A stretch of 64,000 nucleotides of DNA from a virus: positions 1 to 64,000 of the IMG/VR virus record IMGVR_UViG_3300033145_001156; one strand, written 5' to 3'. Made by a program: the position numbers and the translations under genes. The notes beneath the pieces are model-generated. The model had not been told where the DNA came from. It did not search any database and saw only the letters and a list, made by a program, of their open reading frames with translations. This document shows, piece after piece, positions 12,689 to 60,287 of this stretch; within the stretch, counting starts at the first letter, position 1, and every line of letters starts with the position of its first letter.

Positions 12689-12702
12689 ACTTTGCGCAAA
12701 GT
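12689..12702. repeat. Junction palindrome, copy 2
   Basis: ACTTTGCGCAAAGT, exact core, one base after the TAG stop of the holin-like gene. Confidence 0.9.
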
Positions 12703-13713: not shown

Positions 13714-13727
13714 ACTTTGCGCAAAGT
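13714..13727. repeat. Junction palindrome, copy 3
   Basis: Exact core within TAGGACTTTGCGCAAAGTTT, followed directly by AGGAGGG, the ribosome-binding site of the gene at 13743. Confidence 0.9.
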
Positions 13728-13742
13728 TTAGGAGGGACCATT

Positions 13743-14291
13743 ATGGGCATCAGACCTAAATTGCTTCTGTGTATTGGCATCGATGACTTTGCGCCCGGTG
13801 ATCGATTTGACGAGACCACATACCTACGTGTCATGGAAGATGATGTGTTTGATATTCCGTTAGGATTCATGGAGCAAGAGCACCCAGAACTTCAGGAGAA
13901 ACGGTTCTTGCACGACTACATCGTTCATGATACTGAATATGGGGACCCGCAGATTTTCGCCATTAGGGCACCTGGTAGTCAAACTATCGGCCCGGAGATA
14001 CCACTATATGCCCTCGCTCAGTATTTGGGTTGCAACACGAACTGGCATTATGTGTTTCAACCTGTGCAGTGGGGGAAAGATGGTTATTGGCCTCATGAAG
14101 TAGCAGAGTGGCAAGCAGAGCATCAAGGCAGATTTGGAAACGGTGCTGGAATTGACCGGCATTATGATCTACTTGAGTATCCTTATCTGTGCGAGTCAGT
14201 CATGCAGTGGGCCACGAAGGTGCTGAACTATGTGGGATTTCATGTTAGCATTGAAGATTTGAAAGTCATGCTGTACTTGTACTGGTGTTAA
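13743..14291 (+). CDS. Unknown 182-residue protein
   Basis: Starts at ATG 13743 after AGGAGGG. The sequence is rich in aromatic and acidic residues (EEHPELQEKRFLHDY, NWHYVFQPVQWGKDGYWP) and looks like a folded globular domain. No motif recognised. Its position behind the elaborate R4 leader and in front of a methyltransferase/nuclease pair makes it worth testing as part of that system. Confidence 0.75.
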   Translation: MGIRPKLLLCIGIDDFAPGDRFDETTYLRVMEDDVFDIPLGFMEQEHPELQEKRFLHDYIVHDTEYGDPQIFAIRAPGSQTIGPEIPLYALAQYLGCNTNWHYVFQPVQWGKDGYWPHEVAEWQAEHQGRFGNGAGIDRHYDLLEYPYLCESVMQWATKVLNYVGFHVSIEDLKVMLYLYWC

Positions 14292-14313: not shown

Positions 14314-14327
14314 ACTTTGTGCAAAGC
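14314..14327. repeat. Junction palindrome, copy 4 (variant)
   Basis: ACTTTGTGCAAAGC, two changes from the core, 18 bases upstream of the methyltransferase start and followed by GAAAGGGAG. Confidence 0.8.
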
Positions 14328-14344: not shown

Positions 14345-15907
14345 ATGACAGAACCAACATGGCAAATTTCTTTGCCCTCACCAAGAGGCAATAAACGTCT
14401 CATAGAACTACCAGCAACTGGTATGGTTATCAGCCCTCTGAACCCCCGGAGGACGCGCCCAGAAGATGAGATAGATTTACTGGCATCCAGAATCAGGCAG
14501 CATGGTTATGAGATCACCCGCGCTATTTGGGTACACGAGGTGAACGAGCATTACGAAGTTTTCGCCGGAGGCACACGACTTGAGGCGGCCAAGCGCGCAG
14601 GAATGTCGCTGATTCCTTCGATTCTGCATGAAGGATTCAGCGAAGATGAAGTTTGCAAGCTGGCCGAACTTGACAATGAGAACGACGAGTACCACCAGCC
14701 CGTGCCTATCGTGGACGTGTGGCTGTCCTACAAGGCTCTGGCTAACGCGGGTTGGACGCAGCCCCGGATAGCGCGGGCTAAGGGATGCTCACAGTCATTT
14801 GTAAGTCTGCGCTTGGCATTAGCAAAACTACCTGAACCTATCCTAAGACAATTTATTAACAATGAAGAGTTGAAAGAGCGACATGCTCTTGAAATCATCA
14901 AATTATTAACAGTTAATAATCTCACTCCCTGGCTGACCCGCGAACAGGCCATGCTGGAGGTCATCAAGAAGGTGGGGATCGGGACGGCGGCGCAGTTCGC
15001 CAAGAAGGTGAAGACGTACAATACCATCATCGGAGAGGTGCAGACGTTTGCTGACGGCCTGGAGTATCAGCGCCGGCAAGAGTTCCTGGAGGTCCTTGCC
15101 GAAAAGAAGGTGCGGACGGTAGCGGCAGCTAAGAACATAGCGGCCAGGATCACGTATGCCATTGCTGAGGCGGCGCGCAGGGCCGAAGAGGATGCCCTCA
15201 TTGCTGTGCAAGAGGCCGAGCGCGAACGCATCGAGGCGGAACGCAAGGAACGTGAGGCCCAAGAACGGCAACGATGGTTCGATAATAACGTAACCCTGAT
15301 TCACGGCGACTTATTGTCGGTACAGATCGAGGACGAATCGGTGGATATGATATTCACGGATCCCCCGTACAGTGAAGATTCTATTTCACTATACGGCGAT
15401 CTGGCGAAGTTGGGGGCGCGTGTATTGAAACCTGGTGGCAGCCTGATCTGCTATGCGGGCCACTATGCCCTTCCCGAGATATTCTCCTTGATGACGCCAC
15501 ACCTGCGGTTCTGGTGGACGCTGGCCTGTGAGCATGGCGGCAACTCTGCACGACTACCTGGCAAGTGGGTATTCGTGGGGTGGAAACCAATGCTGTGGTT
15601 CGTCAAGGAAGGCCGTCGAGACAAGGAGTACGTGGCCGATATCTTCAAATCTACGCAGCCGGACAAGTCCCTGCATGAATGGCAACAGGATACCTCGGAG
15701 GCGGCCTACTACATTGAGCACCTGACCGGTCAGGGCGATATCGTGTTGGACCCGTTCTGTGGATCGGGCACTACGTTAGTAGCAGCGATCAATCTGGGAA
15801 GATTGATTATCGGCGTTGACCAGGATAGAGAATCGATTGAGACAACCAGGGAGCGACTAGATGAATACTACACCCGACAATCCGGAGCATATCCAACTAG
15901 AGAATGA
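14345..15907 (+). CDS. ParB-like domain fused to an amino-group DNA methyltransferase
   Basis: A 520-residue protein from ATG 14345. Residues about 25-105 form a ParB/sulfiredoxin fold (EVFAGGTRLEAAKRAGM). Residues about 120-200 resemble ParB helix-turn-helix regions (GWTQPRIARAKGCSQSFVSLRLAL). A charged coiled coil (AEEDALIAVQEAERERIEAER) leads to a methyltransferase with TDPPY (about residue 338) and LDPFCGSGTT (about 468). The order of the motifs fits the beta or gamma class, which transfers methyl to N6-adenine or N4-cytosine. The ParB part could bind DNA or hydrolyse CTP. A nuclease gene overlaps its 3' end by 47 bases, which suggests a modification-restriction pair. Confidence 0.9.
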   Translation: MTEPTWQISLPSPRGNKRLIELPATGMVISPLNPRRTRPEDEIDLLASRIRQHGYEITRAIWVHEVNEHYEVFAGGTRLEAAKRAGMSLIPSILHEGFSEDEVCKLAELDNENDEYHQPVPIVDVWLSYKALANAGWTQPRIARAKGCSQSFVSLRLALAKLPEPILRQFINNEELKERHALEIIKLLTVNNLTPWLTREQAMLEVIKKVGIGTAAQFAKKVKTYNTIIGEVQTFADGLEYQRRQEFLEVLAEKKVRTVAAAKNIAARITYAIAEAARRAEEDALIAVQEAERERIEAERKEREAQERQRWFDNNVTLIHGDLLSVQIEDESVDMIFTDPPYSEDSISLYGDLAKLGARVLKPGGSLICYAGHYALPEIFSLMTPHLRFWWTLACEHGGNSARLPGKWVFVGWKPMLWFVKEGRRDKEYVADIFKSTQPDKSLHEWQQDTSEAAYYIEHLTGQGDIVLDPFCGSGTTLVAAINLGRLIIGVDQDRESIETTRERLDEYYTRQSGAYPTRE

Positions 15908-17704: not shown

Positions 17705-17718
17705 ACTTTGCGCAAAAT
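17705..17718. repeat. Junction palindrome, copy 5 (variant)
   Basis: ACTTTGCGCAAAAT, one change, immediately after TAG and before AGGAGG. Confidence 0.85.
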
Positions 17719-17731
17719 TTAGGAGGTAGTG

Positions 17732-17932
17732 ATGGTGGTGTTGATGTTCAGCGTGGGCGCGGGGTTCTCCGATGAGAAGTTGGCGAGGCTGTTGTCTAGG
17801 AAGGCGGAGGAGTTGGCTGATAGTTTGGCCGGTGCGGTTGAGGACGTCATATGCGAGGAGCATGGTTGGGACATGACTGAGGTTCACTGCGAGATGTTGA
17901 AGCAGGTGTGTCAGACTTTGCGCAAAGTTTGA
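17732..17932 (+). CDS. Small helical protein
   Basis: A 66-residue protein after AGGAGG. It is helical and acidic (SDEKLARLLSRKAEELADSL), with two Cys pairs spread over the second half. Its 3' end overlaps the converging RusA-like gene and a palindrome, whose bases encode the C-terminal residues TLRKV. Probably a paralogue of the gene at 16965. Confidence 0.65.
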   Translation: MVVLMFSVGAGFSDEKLARLLSRKAEELADSLAGAVEDVICEEHGWDMTEVHCEMLKQVCQTLRKV

Positions 17933-20132: not shown

Positions 20133-20411
20133 ATGAATAAGATGACGTGGGCACACGCGATAGAGCTTGGGATACTGAGCGATGAAGCCAGCGCATACTT
20201 TGAGGCGCTAGAGGCCGAGGCGCGGGCGAAAGAATCCTTAACCTATGAGTACAGGCGCAGCTTTCCCAGCCCATATCCACCATACGCTGTTCAGTTACAG
20301 GATGGCGTAGCCATCGGTGCGACGGCCAATCTCTATGATGGCGCTGAGAATGAAGACCCCCGAACGTGGCGCTACTATCCCGCCGAGGCCGGGGTATGTG
20401 CTATCGAGTAG
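20133..20411 (+). CDS. Unknown 92-residue protein
   Basis: ATG 20133 gives a seven-base spacing to GGGAGGG. ATG 20127 is too close. The N-terminal helix (THAIELGILSDEASAYFEAL-like) is followed by an aromatic, Pro-rich part (RSFPSPYPPYAVQLQDG). No family recognised. Confidence 0.7.
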   Translation: MNKMTWAHAIELGILSDEASAYFEALEAEARAKESLTYEYRRSFPSPYPPYAVQLQDGVAIGATANLYDGAENEDPRTWRYYPAEAGVCAIE

Positions 20412-20478
20412 CTCGAAACGCCCCACGGGGCGTCCACCGGTGAGGCCGGTGCTGATGAGAGCAGACGGGAGGAGGAGG

Positions 20479-23362: not shown

Positions 23363-23772
23363 TGCTGAGGGAACGAGCACTAGAAGCGTGGATCGAAGAG
23401 GAGAGGGGCCGGAAGGATGCTCAGGAGCGCACGGACGTCGGGCTGTTCAGGAGGGCCAGGGAGCATTTCTCCAAGGCGTTCGGGGTGGAACCTGAGGTTG
23501 TCAAGCGCACCAGCCACTGGGTCGAGGTGGGGGCCGGGGGCATGGTGTTCTTCTTCAACCCGATGACGAAGACTTACTGGTTGTGGGGCGAGTGCCCGGA
23601 CTGCGGATGGCATTGCTGGTCGTCGCGCGGGTTCCAGACGCTGGGCGAGATGGGGAGGGTGATTGCCGAGTTCAAGCCTGAGGGGCACAAGTGCGGGACC
23701 CCAGAGGATGTGGAGGAGACTGCCGCTGAGACTTTGCGCAAAGCGTGGCGAGCCTTTATGATGGAGGAGTGA
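23362..23772 (+). CDS. Zinc-ribbon protein
   Basis: A 136-residue protein. Residues about 60-100 form a beta-rich zinc domain (WLWGECPDCGWHCWSSRGF), with further Cys at HKCG. The C-terminal TAAETLRKAWRAF is encoded partly by a junction palindrome. It may bind single-stranded nucleic acid, but that is speculation. Its TGA overlaps the ATG of a small gene that the TnpB element interrupts. Confidence 0.75.
   Translation: MLRERALEAWIEEERGRKDAQERTDVGLFRRAREHFSKAFGVEPEVVKRTSHWVEVGAGGMVFFFNPMTKTYWLWGECPDCGWHCWSSRGFQTLGEMGRVIAEFKPEGHKCGTPEDVEETAAETLRKAWRAFMMEE
23731..23744. repeat. Junction palindrome, copy 7 (variant)
   Basis: ACTTTGCGCAAAGC, inside the 3' end of a coding region (encodes TLRKA), 28 bases before its stop. 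Confidence 0.75.
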
Positions 23773-23957: not shown

Positions 23958-25073
23958 ATGATCAGAGCAAGAGCATATAAGACGAAGCTGAAATTGAATA
24001 ATTGTGAGAAGACGTGGTGCAGGCGGTGTGCTGGTGCATCACGTTTTTGTTATAATTGGGGCCTGGCCCAAATGAAAGAAGCTTATGAGCAAGGAAGAGA
24101 GACGAGCGTGGGGGCTGAGAAGAAGCGCCTCAATGCCACCAAGGATGAAATCGCTCCGTGGTTGCGGGATGTACCTTATGCTGTGTTGCAGTCTGCATTT
24201 GATAACCTGTTCAAGGCATACTTGAATTTCTTTCGGAGGGTGAAGAAGAGGAAAGGCCCGGCAGGATTCCCGAAGTTCAAGTCGAGGCGTAATTCGCGGC
24301 AATCATTTACTCTACGAGGCAGTATTCAGCTCACGGAGACTGGTATCAAGTTGCCCCGTATCGGTTGGTTGCGGTTGGCAGAACATGGTTACATGCCTAC
24401 AACAAAGCGGGCGCGAATCTTGTCGGTGAACGTCTCAACCCGAGACCACGGGCTAACCTGGTATGCCAGTATCCAGGTAGAGGAAAGTGTACCTGAACCT
24501 ACCCCGGCGACTGGTGAACCACTGGGGATTGACCTGGGGATACATGCATTGGCGGTGCTGAGTGACGGTACGGTGTATGAGAACATCAAGCCATTGAGGA
24601 CGGCGCAACGAAAGGTGAAGCGGCTGTCGAAGGAATTAGCGCGTCGCACGAAGGGCGGCAAGAACTGGCTGAAAACCAAGGCCAAGTTGAACAAGGCTCA
24701 TTTGCATGCGCGGAATGTTCGGTTATCTTACCTGCACCAGATCAGCGCCGAGACAATTGCAAAGTATCCCAGAGTGATCGTGATGGAAGACCTCAATGTA
24801 GCAGGGATGGTAAAGAATCACTGTCTGGCGAGAGCGATAGCAGATTTAGGGATGTATGAGGTTAGGAGACAGATGAGCTATAAGGCTGCGTGGAATGGTT
24901 CTGAGTTCAAGTTGGCTTCCAGATGGTATCCTTCCTCGAAGGCATGTTCTGGGTGTGGGTGCATCAAGGACGGGTTGACGCTGGCCGACCGGACGTTCAC
25001 TTGCTCGGACTGTGGACTAGCGATCGATCGAGACCTAAACGCGGCCTTGAACCTGGCGGCGTTGGCACGTTAA
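23958..25073 (+). CDS. tnpB: TnpB RNA-guided nuclease (IS605 OrfB family)
   Basis: A 371-residue protein with an intact RuvC-like active site: GIDLGIHALA (Asp about 192), IVMEDLNVAGM (Glu about 277) and DRDLNAALNL (Asp about 357-359). A zinc ribbon, CSGCG ... CSDCG (Cys 330, 333, 349, 352), lies between the last two. The N-terminal half (residues 1-180) matches the helical and beta-barrel region of TnpB that binds the target-adjacent motif and the omegaRNA. TnpB proteins cut DNA guided by an RNA made from the transposon end. The enzyme should be active. It lies in the middle of a defined insertion and is followed by its likely guide RNA region. Confidence 0.95.
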   Translation: MIRARAYKTKLKLNNCEKTWCRRCAGASRFCYNWGLAQMKEAYEQGRETSVGAEKKRLNATKDEIAPWLRDVPYAVLQSAFDNLFKAYLNFFRRVKKRKGPAGFPKFKSRRNSRQSFTLRGSIQLTETGIKLPRIGWLRLAEHGYMPTTKRARILSVNVSTRDHGLTWYASIQVEESVPEPTPATGEPLGIDLGIHALAVLSDGTVYENIKPLRTAQRKVKRLSKELARRTKGGKNWLKTKAKLNKAHLHARNVRLSYLHQISAETIAKYPRVIVMEDLNVAGMVKNHCLARAIADLGMYEVRRQMSYKAAWNGSEFKLASRWYPSSKACSGCGCIKDGLTLADRTFTCSDCGLAIDRDLNAALNLAALAR

Positions 25074-27022: not shown

Positions 27023-27194
27023 TGATATTGTCTTCTGGGCCATAGTGGACCCGAATGCTCCCATGGAAGAGAGAACATTCCATGTGATCAACACAGGACG
27101 GGCACTACCAAGAGTGGATTATGAGGATGGGATTGTGTATATGGGGACGGTGCAGATCAACGAGGTCGTGTGGCACGTGTTCGAGGAGGTGTGA
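26928..27194 (+). CDS. DUF7352-like phage protein
   Basis: An 88-residue protein. The pattern RTIWKYALPWA ... EMPCGAEILQIQAQG ... FWAIVDPNAP ... RTFHVINTG ... YMGTVQINEVVWHVFEEV matches a widespread small phage family (DUF7352) of unknown function. ATG 26925 is an alternative start three bases upstream. Confidence 0.85.
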   Translation: MRTIWKYALPWAVNKTEMPCGAEILQIQAQGNDIVFWAIVDPNAPMEERTFHVINTGRALPRVDYEDGIVYMGTVQINEVVWHVFEEV

Positions 27195-27583
27195 TGAGCA
27201 CGAAGAGATGGGGGAAGTTGAGGAGGGAGCTCCTGTTGCAGTTGCATTCCCGTCGTTCGCATACTGTTACTGAGCTAGCTAAGCGGACGGGGCGGCACAG
27301 ATCATCGGTTAGCAGGACGTTGGCAGTGATGAAAAACGATGGTCTAGTTGCGAGGCATCTTGGCTATCTGGTGCTCACCGTTGACGGGGATTTTGCTGCT
27401 TTTGAGGTAGATGAGCAGATCCGGCGAGAGATCAATGAGGCGAAGCGGTATATCGGCGACCTTGAGGCTGTGCTGATGAGGCGCGATGGGTGTCGGAGGG
27501 GAAGGTGGGAGGATGATCTTCCTTCTATCGGCGTATTTGATGCGATGGCGAAGGAGGTTATGGGGCATGATAAAGCTGAGTGA
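27194..27583 (+). CDS. Winged-helix (MarR-like) DNA-binding protein
   Basis: A 129-residue protein in TGATG overlap. Residues 10-70 are a winged helix: LLLQLHSRRSHTVTELAKRT, then RHRSSVSRTLAVMKNDGLVA (recognition helix) and a wing (RHLGYLVLT). The C-terminal helices probably form the dimer interface. A transcription regulator, its target unknown. Confidence 0.8.
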   Translation: MSTKRWGKLRRELLLQLHSRRSHTVTELAKRTGRHRSSVSRTLAVMKNDGLVARHLGYLVLTVDGDFAAFEVDEQIRREINEAKRYIGDLEAVLMRRDGCRRGRWEDDLPSIGVFDAMAKEVMGHDKAE

Positions 27584-27794
27584 GTTGAGGGAGTCCGACA
27601 GGGGCAGGATGGTCATCTACAGATCGCAGGGTGGGGACAAGGTGGAACGGGGTAGGATATCCAGTTGGAACGAGTGCTGGATGTTCGTGGAATATGACGG
27701 CCCCTACCGTGGTGCAGCGATGTACACGGCCCCGACGAGACCGGAAGATCTGGAGTGGCTAGAGGACTTTGTGCAAAGTGAGGAGGGGGAATGA
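27567..27794 (+). CDS. Conserved small phage protein
   Basis: A 75-residue protein after AAGGAGG. KLSELRESDRGRMVIYRSQG ... GRISSWNECWMFVEYDG ... TRPEDLEWL is a layout I recognise from many phage hypothetical proteins. It is SH3-like in pattern, with no known role. A junction palindrome variant forms part of its 3' coding sequence. Confidence 0.8.
   Translation: MIKLSELRESDRGRMVIYRSQGGDKVERGRISSWNECWMFVEYDGPYRGAAMYTAPTRPEDLEWLEDFVQSEEGE
27766..27779. repeat. Junction palindrome, copy 8 (variant)
   Basis: ACTTTGTGCAAAGT, one change, inside the last codons of a gene and followed by GAGGAGGGGG. Confidence 0.8.
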
Positions 27795-30343: not shown

Positions 30344-30357
30344 ACTTTGCGCAAAGC
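30344..30357. repeat. Junction palindrome, copy 9 (variant)
   Basis: ACTTTGCGCAAAGC, after TAGG and before AGGGAGGGG. Confidence 0.85.
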
Positions 30358-31416: not shown

Positions 31417-31445
31417 TTGACAATTCCCTGGAATTGTGGTATAAT
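31417..31445 (+). promoter_or_regulatory. Sigma70-type promoter of the 31.5 kb operon
   Basis: TTGACA (31417-31422), 17 bases, TATAAT (31440-31445) with TGTGG in front. It leads into 31467. Confidence 0.9.
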
Positions 31446-31466: not shown

Positions 31467-31943
31467 ATGAAGCAGGAGTTTCCGGAGAAGCTCATAGTGA
31501 AGCAGGAGTTCTCGGTTGATTCGCCAGCAAAGCTGTTGGTGAAGTTCTCGGTGGACGGGGATCGGCGGTACGTGGCGGGGGAGTTGGAGCGGGACTGTTC
31601 CGGCCTGGACGAGGCGCTGGGGCTGTTCGACGAGATCAGGGAGAGGTACAAGGGCAAGGTCGGCCCGAGCCCGCTGGAGGTGTTCGTCAGCTTGCTGAGG
31701 TTAGAGCAGGTGGTAGACCTGTTCACGGAGGAGACGGCAGCAGCCATGCCGTTCCCGCTGGAGAAGGTCAAGGATAAGAGCTACGTCGGCAAGACGGTCG
31801 GGGACGTGTTCATGGCCGAGGAGGGACTGGTGAACTGGGTTCAGAAGAAGATCAAGTTCGATGAGGAGAGCGACATCACGAAGAGGTTGGGGATCGCAGC
31901 GTGCGTGTGGTATTTCAGTGATAATGAGGAAGGGAGTTACTGA
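31467..31943 (+). CDS. Unknown early protein A
   Basis: A 158-residue protein from ATG 31467 after GGAAGGAGG. The N-terminus repeats KLIVKQEFSVDSPAKLLVKF, a beta pattern, and the rest is helical. Its one-base overlap with the 385-residue gene and shared strong promoter suggest they work together, perhaps in DNA replication or recombination, since primase and helicase genes follow. Confidence 0.75.
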   Translation: MKQEFPEKLIVKQEFSVDSPAKLLVKFSVDGDRRYVAGELERDCSGLDEALGLFDEIRERYKGKVGPSPLEVFVSLLRLEQVVDLFTEETAAAMPFPLEKVKDKSYVGKTVGDVFMAEEGLVNWVQKKIKFDEESDITKRLGIAACVWYFSDNEEGSY

Positions 31944-33100
31944 TGGTACAAGAACGGGAAGTTGATGGATCTGTCATTTTCGACAAGGGGCAGTACGCGG
32001 TCAGGTTTGACAAGTTCTCGAAGAAGGATTCGACGGACGGGCTGCCGATCGCCGAGTTGGTGAACTGGGGCGGCGAGGAGCTCATGATAGTCCGATACAA
32101 CACGGTTATTCCAGAAGGGAGAGGGCCTTCTGGGAGCGTGAGGGTTGGGGAGTTGTTGTTGTTAATGCGGGCGTTCGGGTGCGATGTGTCCAAGATGCCC
32201 AAGCGGATCAACGAGGACACGCTGGCCGATGCCCTGATGGAGGCCGCTCTTCAATTAGAGGGGTGCCAGAACGAGGTCGTCGTTCACGTGACCAAGGAAG
32301 GAAGTTGGTTGTCCTGGATCGAAGGGATGGGGTTGCCGCAGGACGAGACGTTTCAGTTCAGGTTGTCCCAGTTCACGACCCTGAACGAAGAAGGTATCCC
32401 GTGTCCCAGGGTGCATCCTGCGAGTGAGGATTACGGGAGGGTCTTCTTCGTAAAACTCGAAGTCGTTGGGGGAGAGTTTGATGGCATAGAAGTGCGCTGC
32501 ATGGTTCCCTACGCTTACGCGGTTAATGAGAGGGGCGAGCCGACGTTGCCGACATACACAGACCGAAAGACTGGCGAGAAGGTGAAAGCAGTAGGGTATG
32601 TGAGGACTGTGAAGTTTGAGAGCCTTTTTCTTGATGATGAGTATGACTGCGAGGATGGCCCGAGCGACAACGTCGTTGCGATAATGGCGAAGCACATTTC
32701 CAATAAGACTGCTCTCGGGCGGGTGAACAAGTACGGGGCGGACCTGGACTCCATGATGAAGCCGCCAGAAGGGTCGGTGCCAAAAACCCAGCCCCCTCTA
32801 TCAGAAGGGGAAGAAGAGGCCCTGTCGAAGATCGAGCATGATACCATCGGGGATGACCAGCTGCGGGACCTGATGGCAAAGCATGCCACCATGCCGGTGT
32901 TCAAGGAAGGCACCTGGGTGTTCACCAAGGATGGGCTGGCATGGGCGAAGGACATCCTTGCTGGGTGGTCGGACAAACACAACCTGCCCAGGAAGTGTAG
33001 CCAATGGAACAAGGCGCAGCGGTCCCTGGTAGTGAAACTGCTGGATGGTGAACTGGCTGGCAGGGAATGGTTCGGAGAGGAAGAAGAAAGTGCCTTCTGA
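31943..33100 (+). CDS. Unknown early protein B, possible DNA-binding
   Basis: A 385-residue protein. The first 220 residues are rich in beta strands (VIFDKGQYAVRFDKFSKKDS, FFVKLEVVGGEFDGIEVRCM). A linker and a helical C-terminus (TWVFTKDGLAWAKDILAGWS) follow. The beta-rich core and the position at the head of a replication gene set would fit a single-strand binding protein, but no motif proves it. Confidence 0.75.
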   Translation: MVQEREVDGSVIFDKGQYAVRFDKFSKKDSTDGLPIAELVNWGGEELMIVRYNTVIPEGRGPSGSVRVGELLLLMRAFGCDVSKMPKRINEDTLADALMEAALQLEGCQNEVVVHVTKEGSWLSWIEGMGLPQDETFQFRLSQFTTLNEEGIPCPRVHPASEDYGRVFFVKLEVVGGEFDGIEVRCMVPYAYAVNERGEPTLPTYTDRKTGEKVKAVGYVRTVKFESLFLDDEYDCEDGPSDNVVAIMAKHISNKTALGRVNKYGADLDSMMKPPEGSVPKTQPPLSEGEEEALSKIEHDTIGDDQLRDLMAKHATMPVFKEGTWVFTKDGLAWAKDILAGWSDKHNLPRKCSQWNKAQRSLVVKLLDGELAGREWFGEEEESAF

Positions 33101-33386: not shown

Positions 33387-33547
33387 TGAAGATATTGCGT
33401 CTAGTAGTGATTAGTGGTCTTGTCGGGTTCGTGGTGATGTATTGCAGCATGGCAGTCTTCCCTCGTCCTTGGGGGTTCATTACCGGGACGTTGGGATGCG
33501 TGGCTGGTGGGTATCTCGTTAGTATATGGAGTGATCGCAAGGAGTGA
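33386..33547 (+). CDS. Small two-helix membrane protein
   Basis: A 53-residue protein: ILRLVVISGLVGFVVMYCSM and GFITGTLGCVAGGYLVSIW are hydrophobic helices with a short Pro-containing loop. TGATG overlap with the gene before. Function unknown. Confidence 0.7.
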   Translation: MKILRLVVISGLVGFVVMYCSMAVFPRPWGFITGTLGCVAGGYLVSIWSDRKE

Positions 33548-33552
33548 CGAGG

Positions 33553-33566
33553 ACTTTGCGCAAAGT
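33553..33566. repeat. Junction palindrome, copy 10, upstream of the LexA-like gene
   Basis: Exact core, 13 bases before the ATG of a LexA-like DNA-binding protein. A natural candidate operator for autoregulation. Confidence 0.9.
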
Positions 33567-33578
33567 TTGGGGGAAGTG

Positions 33579-33869
33579 ATGCTGAGGGCATGGGTATCTG
33601 AGAAGGACAGAGCGGAGATAGGCGACGTCCGGCTGCATCTGCTGGCGTACATCCAGGGGTATGTCGAGGGCCACGGCTATCCCCCGACTGTCAGGGAGAT
33701 CCGTGACGTGTCGGGGTTCGCCTCGACGAACACTGTCCAGTACCACCTGGACAGGTTGGTTGAGATGGGGCTGCTCACGAAGGTTCGCGGGAAGTCGCGG
33801 ACGCTGAGGATCACTGATGAAGCGAGGAAGAGAATTGCGTTCACGTGGGAGGATGATGATGCGAAATGA
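33579..33869 (+). CDS. LexA-like winged-helix DNA-binding protein without peptidase domain
   Basis: A 96-residue protein from ATG 33579. Residues 17-85 match the LexA N-terminal domain: LLAYIQGYVEGHGYPPTVRE, IRDVSGFASTNTVQYHLDRL, VEMGLLTKVRGKSRTLRIT. The S24-type autoprotease domain of LexA is absent. A dimeric repressor of this fold would bind a palindrome, and the 14-bp element lies immediately upstream. The same element recurs at 18 other places in the window. Confidence 0.85.
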   Translation: MLRAWVSEKDRAEIGDVRLHLLAYIQGYVEGHGYPPTVREIRDVSGFASTNTVQYHLDRLVEMGLLTKVRGKSRTLRITDEARKRIAFTWEDDDAK

Positions 33870-35578: not shown

Positions 35579-35592
35579 ACTTTGCGCAAAGC
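35579..35592. repeat. Junction palindrome, copy 11 (variant)
   Basis: ACTTTGCGCAAAGC after TAGG, followed by GCATGAAAGGGAG. Confidence 0.85.
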
Positions 35593-42425: not shown

Positions 42426-42925
42426 TGATCAAGGGAGAGTTCCATAACGTAGACATCAACTTGGGATACGAAAGGCTCGCGAAGGCTATCGTCGTGGGTG
42501 GGCTGCGAGGGTGGAATTACAAGTTCCTCGCCTCCGACTGGTGCTTGGACTTGTGCCTGATGGTGGACTGGGACAGGGACGAGCTGGTGCGGAAGCTGAG
42601 GAAGGTTGAGAAGCGGGAAGGGCCGTGCTGGTGGAAGCTGCGGCGGACATGCGATGACTGTGAGAAGCCGATAGCCGACTGGAACAAGTCTGGATACTGC
42701 AAACTTTGCGCAAAGTCTCACAGGAAGCGTAATGACCATAACTATGGCAGGGCCAGGATGTGTCTGAAGTGTGGTGGGCGAATAACCAATAACGCGAGAT
42801 TATGCAGGACGTGCGAGAACAAGAGGAGGAGAAGTGCTGGACTTGACGGTGGCGGACAGGCAGTTGGCGTTCACGAAAACTGTGTTGGGGAGGATGGAGG
42901 AGTTCGAACACAAGGACATAATTGA
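42425..42925 (+). CDS. Zinc-motif protein overlapping the next gene
   Basis: A 166-residue frame. CDDCEKPIADWNKSGYCKLC near residues 77-96 and CLKCGG ... CRTCENKRRRS near 115-135 are two zinc sites. The last 31 residues overlap the gene at 42834 out of frame and may not matter. A junction palindrome encodes part of YCKLCAKS. Confidence 0.7.
   Translation: MIKGEFHNVDINLGYERLAKAIVVGGLRGWNYKFLASDWCLDLCLMVDWDRDELVRKLRKVEKREGPCWWKLRRTCDDCEKPIADWNKSGYCKLCAKSHRKRNDHNYGRARMCLKCGGRITNNARLCRTCENKRRRSAGLDGGGQAVGVHENCVGEDGGVRTQGHN
42713..42726. repeat. Junction palindrome, copy 12 (inside a gene)
   Basis: Exact core within coding sequence, 121 bases upstream of the next start. Its presence here shows the element is not confined to junctions. 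Confidence 0.85.
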
Positions 42926-44161: not shown

Positions 44162-44175
44162 ACTTTGCGCAAAGC
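44162..44175. repeat. Junction palindrome, copy 13 (variant)
   Basis: ACTTTGCGCAAAGC, 18 bases before the next start and followed by GCAAGAAGGG. Confidence 0.85.
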
Positions 44176-50277: not shown

Positions 50278-50511
50278 ATGAAGCATTTCGTTGATGGGGA
50301 TCAGGTGGCGATCACGCTGGACGACTTTGTGGACTTGCAGCAATCGCCCGCCGTGTTCATTCCCGTGGACAGCGACGACGGGAGGGCCGTGATCGCTGGC
50401 GGGGTGGCGCAGTTGTCTGTGGGGCGGTTGAGCGAGATATTCAACGAATTGAGGACTTTGCGCGAAGCGCAGGAAGGGGATGGAAATGGGCGGGCAGGTC
50501 TTGAAGGTTAG
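50278..50511 (+). CDS. Small acidic protein
   Basis: A 77-residue protein after GGGAAGG. Beta-rich (DQVAITLDDFVDLQQSPAVF, RAVIAGGVAQLSVGRL), then a polar tail encoded partly by a diverged junction palindrome (LRTLREAQEG). Function unknown. Confidence 0.65.
   Translation: MKHFVDGDQVAITLDDFVDLQQSPAVFIPVDSDDGRAVIAGGVAQLSVGRLSEIFNELRTLREAQEGDGNGRAGLEG
50455..50468. repeat. Junction palindrome, copy 14 (variant)
   Basis: ACTTTGCGCGAAGC, two changes from the core, 18 bases before the start of the next gene and followed by GCAGGAAGGGG. Confidence 0.75.
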
Positions 50512-50965
50512 GCGGTACAAGGCGGGGTACGAGGTTCGGACGATACATCATCCAGAAGAAGATTGCGGCGTTCCCGGCGGGATGGAGATGAAGTCCGCCT
50601 TCACGCCGGAAGGGTACTACATCGGCAATTCCAAGGATGCATACCGATTGATAGTCAAGCGGGGCATCAAGCCGGAACCCATGAAGCCGGATCGTCCGGA
50701 GGCTAACGGGGGTTGGGGGCGGACGTGTTCCATCGGGTTCTGTGAGCGCGACCAGAAGTGGTTCGGCTGGTCACACAGGGCTATCTACGGGTTCGGAATT
50801 GGCGCTAAGGTAAAAGAGGGGGACTGTGCTGCGAGTTCGGGATGGACTGACGAGTGGTTGGCAGAGTATCCTGAAGATGACCTTAGCTTACCAGTCGGAT
50901 TTGTCGCTGAGTCATTAGCTGATTGTAAACGAATGGCGATAGCGTTTGCGGAAAGTGTATCCTAG
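50486..50965 (+). CDS. Conserved phage protein of unknown function
   Basis: A 159-residue protein. YKAGYEVRTIHHPEEDCGVP, GGWGRTCSIGFCERDQKWFG, WSHRAIYGFGIG, then EDLSLPVGFVAESLADCKRM: a set of phrases I recognise from phage hypothetical proteins. Probably a single globular domain. ATG 50480 is an alternative start. A palindrome follows its stop. Confidence 0.8.
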   Translation: MGGQVLKVRRYKAGYEVRTIHHPEEDCGVPGGMEMKSAFTPEGYYIGNSKDAYRLIVKRGIKPEPMKPDRPEANGGWGRTCSIGFCERDQKWFGWSHRAIYGFGIGAKVKEGDCAASSGWTDEWLAEYPEDDLSLPVGFVAESLADCKRMAIAFAESVS

Positions 50966-50966
50966 G

Positions 50967-50980
50967 ACTTTGCGCAAAGT
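50967..50980. repeat. Junction palindrome, copy 15
   Basis: Exact core after TAGG, extended on the right to CT. Confidence 0.9.
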
Positions 50981-56286: not shown

Positions 56287-56300
56287 ATTTTGCGTAAAGT
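56287..56300. repeat. Junction palindrome, copy 16 (diverged)
   Basis: ATTTTGCGTAAAGT, two changes, after TAGG and before CAGGAGG. Confidence 0.75.
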
Positions 56301-56313
56301 TCAGGAGGAAGCG

Positions 56314-56898
56314 ATGATGTTGCCTGGCAGTTTGGTGGCCGAGATGGTAGATGCGACAATAACAGGAAACATAGTACTATTCTTCCCCCACGAGATACCA
56401 GAACAGTTTCCTGGAGTAACTGGCAAGTTGCTGTGCCATGCACCACCATTGGAAGATGGTGGTCTTAGACATGCTTTCGTGTATCTAGGGCCGGAGCAAG
56501 CGGACGAGGCCGGGTTCTGCCATGTGTGCGGAGAGTTTCAGTTGCCTATTGTTGTTCTTGCGAACTCGTGGTCTGCGTGTGGATATTGTGGCAGTAAGCG
56601 CCTTGTGCGCGAAGTTCAGGGGGTAATGATGAGGGGGATAAAGTCGTATTGGTGGCAGTGCGACGTCTGCAAGAAGACCGCAGAGACGAGACAAGATAAG
56701 TTACCGCTAGGGTGGATGCCTGCCTACGGGATGCACGTGTGTTCTGAGGAATGCAAGCAGAAGATGATCAAGATTCAGTCTGAGGTCTACTGCATCGGTC
56801 CTGGGGAGACCTTGGATTTCGAGACGATGAGCATCATTGACTGGCAGGTAGGTGAGGGTAAGTTGTACCTGACTGTTGATGAGGGGAGAATGGGGTAG
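56314..56898 (+). CDS. Multi-zinc protein
   Basis: A 194-residue protein. The first 60 residues are a beta-rich domain (GNIVLFFPHEIPEQFPGVTG). FCHVCGEF, ACGYCGSK and QCDVCKKTAETR, then HVCSEECKQK, provide at least two zinc sites. An internal CCTTGTGCGCGAAGTTCAGG (about 56601) looks like a decayed palindrome-plus-ribosome-site unit, suggesting that two genes fused here. Confidence 0.7.
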   Translation: MMLPGSLVAEMVDATITGNIVLFFPHEIPEQFPGVTGKLLCHAPPLEDGGLRHAFVYLGPEQADEAGFCHVCGEFQLPIVVLANSWSACGYCGSKRLVREVQGVMMRGIKSYWWQCDVCKKTAETRQDKLPLGWMPAYGMHVCSEECKQKMIKIQSEVYCIGPGETLDFETMSIIDWQVGEGKLYLTVDEGRMG

Positions 56899-59195: not shown

Positions 59196-59209
59196 ACCTT
59201 GCGCAAAGC
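59196..59209. repeat. Junction palindrome, copy 17 (diverged)
   Basis: ACCTTGCGCAAAGC, two changes, 18 bases before the next start, and followed by GCAGAGGGGGAG. Confidence 0.7.
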
Positions 59210-59788: not shown

Positions 59789-59802
59789 ACTTTGCGCAAA
59801 GT
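59789..59802. repeat. Junction palindrome, copy 18
   Basis: Exact core, two bases after a TGA stop and directly before GAGGAGG. Confidence 0.9.
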
Positions 59803-59813
59803 GAGGAGGTCTA

Positions 59814-60287
59814 ATGTCTGAATGGAACTGGAGTGATGTTCGCGAGCCGATAGAGAAGCTACTGCGGGAGAAGTATGGTGTAGGGTTGGAATCGGTCACG
59901 GTGGTGAGGACTGCCCGCTCGAACTGGCATGCCCACGTTCCGGCAGGTCTTACGTTCGTGCCTACCCGATACCGAAACGTTGACAGGAAGGGTGTGAGGG
60001 CATGGCTGTGGCGCTTCTTCGGGAAGGTGCTTGGGAAGCCCCGCTGGGGGCAAGACAAGGTGATGCTGGAGCCCATGTGTCCTCACGAAGTGGAGGAGAT
60101 CCAGTTGTCGCAATACACCGCTAAAGATCCGTGTGGTGTTGAATACAGATGGTGGATGGGATACGGCCCGGAGTCGAAGGTCCTGGCTATCGGTGATTGG
60201 GAAGGTTCGACTGGCTTTGCGCAAAGCAGGAAGGGGGAAAGAGATGCTGACGATGGAGCATCGGCCCAAGATCGAGAAGGCGTATGA
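59814..60287 (+). CDS. Unknown 157-residue protein
   Basis: ATG 59814 after GAGGAGG. The first 130 residues are basic and aromatic (SVTVVRTARSNWHAHVPAGL, WLWRFFGKVLGKPRWGQDKV). The tail beyond the palindrome at 60214 (SRKGERDADDGASAQDREGV) looks incidental. Function unknown. Confidence 0.65.
   Translation: MSEWNWSDVREPIEKLLREKYGVGLESVTVVRTARSNWHAHVPAGLTFVPTRYRNVDRKGVRAWLWRFFGKVLGKPRWGQDKVMLEPMCPHEVEEIQLSQYTAKDPCGVEYRWWMGYGPESKVLAIGDWEGSTGFAQSRKGERDADDGASAQDREGV
60214..60227. repeat. Junction palindrome, copy 19 (symmetrical variant)
   Basis: GCTTTGCGCAAAGC: both end bases changed together, so the palindrome is kept. It precedes AGGAAGGGGG and ATG 60244. Confidence 0.85.

Follow-up and report, generated by a model that had tools for sequence, protein, structure and literature searches.

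The locus comprises an exact copy of the palindrome ACTTTGCGCAAAGT (33553-33566) and, directly downstream on the plus strand, a LexA-like gene of 96 codons (33579-33869), with its ATG at 33579 and its stop codon at 33867-33869. The adjacency claimed in the preliminary description is correct, but the ATG lies 12 rather than 13 bases after the palindrome. A longer in-frame ORF of 120 amino acids starts at a GTG at 33507; the 96-residue start is favoured because its layout of palindrome, Shine-Dalgarno (SD) sequence and ATG is common to other sites. The gene lies in the middle of a replication operon, between the gene at 31943 and one for a DnaG-like primase. The nearest promoter upstream of this operon, a 12/12 sigma-70 promoter on the plus strand (31417-31445), contains no copy of the palindrome. 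It belongs to a series of near-perfect sigma-70 promoters of the form TTGACA-N17-TATAAT, found at 31417-31445, 6547, 8888, 18422, 22650 and 44611, in which TGTGG often precedes the -10 element; the spacer of the promoter at 31417 holds an inverted repeat of its own, CAATTCC-CT-GGAATTG.

The window, by which we mean the whole stretch of 64,000 nucleotides analysed, is part of a 105,622 bp (105.6 kb) phage record. The record begins and ends with an exact terminal direct repeat of 114 bp (1-114 and 105509-105622) and for this reason is probably a complete genome, although it is not flagged as such. Nearly all genes called, using a simple home-made caller, lie on the plus strand. No integrase of the tyrosine or serine type (Phage_integrase, Resolvase) was found in the phage and no clear ParA was recognised; the only partition-type gene encodes a fusion of a ParB-like protein and a methyltransferase. 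The window also contains a Type II hammerhead ribozyme (20410-20470) that scores above the Rfam gathering threshold and, within this phage genome, a transposase gene (23958-25073; phrog_506, 1.6e-107).

The LexA-like protein

Pfam assigns residues 20-75 to the LexA DNA-binding domain (LexA_DNA_bind, PF01726; E=5e-14, 52 bits against a cut-off of 23.7), and the ORF ends 21 residues past that domain. Nothing in the ORF is similar, by Pfam, to the C-terminal S24 peptidase/dimerisation domain of LexA, bearing out the earlier claim that the 96 residues hold the DNA-binding domain only. The AlphaFold model, based on 11 sequences, has a mean pLDDT of 90, and 65 of its residues superimpose at 0.9 A on E. 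coli LexA in its DNA-bound form. Its best PDB matches are the LexA-DNA complexes 3jsp and 3jso, the protein matches the sequences of solved LexA proteins, and extra short terminal strands are modelled at residues 2-5 and 87-90. Domain match and model together show that the ORF encodes a DNA-binding protein consisting of a LexA-type winged helix on its own, like GIL01 gp6; it thereby adds a member to a type of protein already known.

The recognition helix reads STNTVQYHL, compared to SSSTVHGHL in Gram-positive LexA. The SOS boxes CGAAC-N4-GTTCG and CTGT-N8-ACAG do not occur in the genome, and GAAC-N4-GTTC occurs once. The different helix and the lack of a CGAAC-N4-GTTCG box are consistent with a new specificity. 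Searches using the LexA-like protein alone returned no relatives from viral_contigs or genome_contigs, and no phage carrying a close homologue was found.

A family of start-associated palindromes

With up to two mismatches allowed, ACTTTGCGCAAAGT occurs 19 times in the window, exactly the number of dispersed sites counted previously, where 0.12 are expected; 100 shuffles of the window gave at most 2 matches. The whole record contains 25 copies. The palindromes are certainly real. The site spans 14 bp with a CG centre, and its core is a perfect palindrome; asymmetry resides in the flanks alone.

Besides the copy at 33553, exact copies are located at 2745-2758 (within TAGACTTTGCGCAAAGTCTA, after the stop codon of the gene at 1527-2744 and 61 bp before a 12/12 sigma-70 promoter), 12689-12702 (preceded by a stop codon), 13714-13727 (followed by TTAGGAGG and the ATG at 13743), 17915-17928 (towards the 3' end of a small gene, with no SD after it), 42703-42716 (followed by an SD and an ATG), 50967-50980 and 59789-59802 (followed by an SD and the ATG at 59814). 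Copies with one mismatch at 17705-17718 and 30344-30357 are each placed between a stop codon and an SD with its ATG (17732 and 30370, respectively); others are found at 23731-23744 (in the 3' end of a gene), 27766-27779 (inside the preceding gene, yet followed by an SD and the ATG at 27791), 35579-35592 (before 35609) and 44162-44175 (before 44194). Two mismatches are present at 14314-14327 (before the ParB-HTH/methyltransferase gene), 50455-50468, 56287-56300 (between a stop codon and an SD with the ATG at 56314), 59196-59209 (followed by an SD) and 60214-60227 (with G..C ends, followed by an SD and an ATG). The copies at 14314, 30344, 35579, 44162, 50455 and 59196 are of the GCGCA type. Those at 50455 and 50967 flank the gene for a Tad6-like anti-Thoeris protein (50480-50965; PF25188, E=2e-55), the former before it and the latter directly 3' of it. 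At 27766 and 60214 the preceding gene overlaps the next start, and the site keeps to the start, not to a non-coding gap.

Most sites have a stop codon (or gene end) on one side and a Shine-Dalgarno sequence on the other, in one orientation relative to transcription. Across the record, an SD-like tetramer follows within 14 nt in 18 of the 25 copies (background 0.30), an SD together with a start follows within 34 nt in 15 (background 0.14, p about 1e-7), and 16 have a stop triplet at their left edge (background 0.26). The flanks are oriented as well: G at -1 without C at +14 is seen in 19 copies and the converse in 2 (p=2e-4), and among copies with unequal ends, A is kept on the left only in 10 and T on the right only in 1 (p=0.01). 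The copies come in two 3' types, AAAGT and AAAGC-GCA, and 7 of the 9 of the A...C form continue as GCA. No sigma-70 promoter matching 10/12 or better contains a copy. Statistically, the palindromes are shown to form a single family of regulatory sites, directional and associated with starts, in the non-structural operons of the phage.

A rough estimate of clustering of the sites around single genes was not significant. A scan for AGGACTTTGCGCAAAGY returned 15 contigs with one copy apiece, most likely by chance.

Candidate binders and rival explanations

Relatives of the phage were sought by terminase (80 loci kept), by primase and by the 31943 protein, and no second genome with the same palindrome was found among them. 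The terminase search retrieved a distant relative, G049 (IMG/VR 3300014613_000020; 98,979 bp), the only relative retrieved by the 31943 protein, which has terminase, primase, DnaB and the 31943 protein in common with this phage at roughly 28-40% identity. It contains 28 copies of a kindred palindrome, CTTTTGYRCAAAAG (TTTTG-YR-CAAAA), where about 2 are expected for the TTTGNNCAAA core; without exception, TTTGNNCAAA is extended by the additional T/A and centred on a pyrimidine-purine step. The centre is CA in 14 copies and TG in 8, so the orientation is mixed. Because the core TTTG-YR-CAAA is common to both phages, we infer that the two palindromes are homologous. Four G049 copies fill the 17-bp spacer between the two elements of a sigma-70 promoter (TTTACT or TTGACT upstream, TATAAT or TATACT downstream), which supports a DNA operator rather than an RNA element. 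Examples of the palindrome in G049 (L103-L107) are at record positions 32247, 33858, 81204 and 86202; its other promoters have TTGACTTTTG in common, with a degenerate right half. G049 has no match to LexA_DNA_bind or ParB_N, and no LexA-like ORF between its 31943 homologue and its primase.

Two further dispersed palindromes, both in other relatives, were set aside as different systems. TTGTATACAA is repeated 4-5 times on the minus strand of the phage contigs L127 (9046-11890) and L142 (9934-13300), about 20 nt upstream of an SD and an ATG, and no LexA domain was found in these two records. TTACC-N5-GGTAA occurs 5-6 times in L084 and L088, often running into a -10-like TAAAAT.

In the gene set scanned, Pfam recognised only three helix-turn-helix (HTH) proteins. 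In addition to the LexA-like protein, they are a fusion of ParB_N, HTH_ParB and an N6/N4 DNA methyltransferase (14345-15907, plus strand), whose start, as read from the sequence, is 17 nt after the site at 14314, and a MarR/ArsR-like winged-helix protein of 129 amino acids (27194-27583, plus strand) without a site upstream. To call the LexA-like protein the best candidate in the window, as was done earlier, is defensible but not decisive, given two other HTH proteins, one of them with an upstream site of its own.

The LexA-like protein as the palindrome binder is one plausible candidate reading, and it is possible, if somewhat short of probable, that it regulates through the palindromes. In what is the most likely mechanism, a LexA-like dimer would occupy the 14-bp palindrome with one recognition helix per half-site. 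Once bound, it would lower the expression of the gene just downstream, by stopping RNA polymerase that reads through the operon, by covering the DNA beside the ribosome-binding region of the message being made, or both; the copy at 33553 would let it repress its own gene. If the protein does bind, the placement of the sites outside promoters and before starts within operons points to a read-through block and autoregulation, not to promoter repression or gp6-type activation, and their orientation recalls phage L5, where reversed stoperators fail (PMC9283540).

Several observations favour this mechanism: the LexA winged helix is seen by both Pfam and fold, GIL01 gp6 offers a precedent with the same 14-bp geometry, and the sites far exceed expectation and are enriched for SD sequences, starts and stops around them. 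A site upstream of the LexA-like gene is also what autoregulation would require; as evidence for binding, this adjacency is weak because most sites directly precede some gene. Against it, G049 has its kindred sites and no LexA_DNA_bind match, flanks so strictly oriented would not be expected if the site were simply a symmetric one for a dimer, no sigma-70 promoter of 10/12 or better contains a site, and no integrase was found. We advance dimeric binding with lowered downstream expression tentatively, as something less than an even prospect. The silencing network proposed in the preliminary description, taken as lysogeny, is unsupported, no integrase having been found and the LexA-like gene lying within a replication operon. 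It is conceivable but unlikely that a single-domain LexA derivative released from RecA control throttles read-through at about 20 genes, its own and the anti-Thoeris gene included, by way of one palindrome set in a fixed orientation before their ribosome-binding sites, and that it does so without lysogeny in a phage of about 105 kb.

LexA-domain-only proteins are present in many phages, and Cosmo gp13, Phage Wrath, PVJ1 and Mx8 p17 (PHROG 362/3502) have the same domain and size class as the protein described here. Six phages with a LexA-domain match were checked: Cosmo, Mx8, Mx4, PVJ1, ct4oC223 and part of MT835478. Unlike the present phage, Cosmo, Mx8, Mx4 and PVJ1, all of which encode LexA-domain-only proteins, have no comparable dispersed palindrome. 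Mx8 has no copy of our palindrome despite the similar recognition helix of p17 (STNTWQCYL). Eight GAACG-N1-CGTTC elements in ct4oC223 were rejected as operators, since their contexts read as coding-sequence repeats. The LexA-domain gene of the Phage Wrath group has just one SOS-box-like sequence before it, CGAAC-N4-GTTTG, read by eye. The array and the LexA-domain gene do not track each other in this sample, other phages showing one without the other; the comparison does not single out the LexA-like protein as the binder.

The palindromes may instead be DNA regulatory sites for another protein, namely the ParB_N/HTH_ParB/methyltransferase fusion, the MarR/ArsR-like protein, an unrecognised phage protein or a host regulator, with the LexA-like gene merely among the genes regulated. 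We consider this a substantial possibility, though short of probable. The ParB-like fusion and the MarR-like protein both have recognised HTH domains, and the gene for the fusion has a site just upstream; ParB sites, however, are usually clustered centromeres and not start-associated, and the MarR-like gene lacks an upstream site. The G049 sites, in a genome without LexA_DNA_bind and ParB_N matches, fit a host factor or an unrecognised protein, but no candidate binder is common to G049 and this phage. The palindromes of Cluster O mycobacteriophages likewise lack an assigned binder (PMC4351075). A reading as promoters for a phage RNA polymerase or a sigma-specific protein was rejected, as no such protein was recognised among the proteins scanned.

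It is quite improbable that the palindrome is a start-associated element of the message, serving mRNA processing or the initiation of translation as has been proposed for the Cluster K SAS. The tight coupling to SD and start in one orientation would suit such an element, and 7 of the 9 A...C copies would fold into a stable hairpin, TGCGC-AAA-GCGCA, immediately ahead of the SD, but the T-ending copies form no common stable hairpin. A hairpin common to all sites was accordingly rejected, only the GCGCA-type copies folding well. Kindred G049 sites, moreover, lie in promoter spacers that would escape transcription, and the central dinucleotide there is in mixed orientation. Least probable of all is that the palindrome and SD form a spreading gene-cassette boundary with little regulatory role, made by recombination or copy-paste of the stop-site-RBS junction: consecutive sites do flank single genes, as around the Tad6-like gene, and palindromes of Cluster O are described as recombining with one another (PMC4351075), but the core is almost invariant in unrelated contexts and symmetric like protein sites, and site spacing is not obviously clustered.

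If the LexA-like protein does bind the sites, a LexA-domain-only phage protein would be linked to a genome-wide palindrome array, and a testable binder would be available for dispersed phage palindromes of the Cluster O type. If it does not, the comparison still shows arrays of this sort in phages that are only distantly related and whose palindromes are akin without being the same, a few of the sites sitting inside promoters.

Comparison with known systems

The LexA-like protein is not a full-length LexA SOS repressor, which has an S24 peptidase/dimerisation domain. It is closer to gp6 of the Bacillus tectivirus GIL01, a truncated LexA that binds a 14-bp palindrome, GaCACAC/GTGTGaC, unlike the SOS box, needs its recognition helix for binding, and turns on a single late promoter by way of a site located at the -35 of that promoter (PMC6182141). 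Both are phage LexA DNA-binding domains without a peptidase domain, and here too a 14-bp palindrome lies upstream. Whereas gp6 has one activator site at a -35, about 24 putative sites are found here at gene starts, and no strong sigma-70 promoter holds a site that could overlap its -35.

Cluster A stoperators (L5, TipsytheTRex), which belong to temperate phages, are asymmetric sites of 13 bp recognised by a monomeric repressor with two domains (PMC9283540). The likeness to stoperators drawn earlier is sound as regards dispersed repetition: more than 20 sites, many in short intergenic spaces, are oriented with transcription in both. It does not extend to asymmetric sites or a two-domain monomer, since our sites have a palindromic core and keep to gene starts, the LexA-like protein is a single 96-residue winged-helix domain without the HTH and stoperator domains of the Cluster A repressor, and the integrase expected among the integration and partition genes of a temperate phage was not found.

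The SAS/ESAS elements of Cluster K occur in 11-19 copies just upstream of start codons, mainly of non-structural genes and in one orientation (PMC3203893). Most copies described here are also directly upstream of starts; the SAS, however, is asymmetric and overlaps the SD, whereas here a palindromic core stands before the SD, and the sequence differs from the 13-bp SAS consensus GGGATAGGAGCCC. The palindromes of Cluster O, TGTTCGG-N3-CCGAACA, number 34 in Corndog, and a dimeric binder has been suspected (PMC4351075). That sequence has no copy in our genome. Both arrays consist of many dispersed, near-invariant inverted repeats in a genome without an integrase, but those of Cluster O are loosely tied to translation starts with little orientation, while ours are mostly start-associated and oriented. 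The array is closer to the Cluster K SAS and the Cluster O palindromes than to the Cluster A stoperators. It combines the symmetry of Cluster O with the start association and orientation of Cluster K, and as a start-associated palindromic array it is a new variant.
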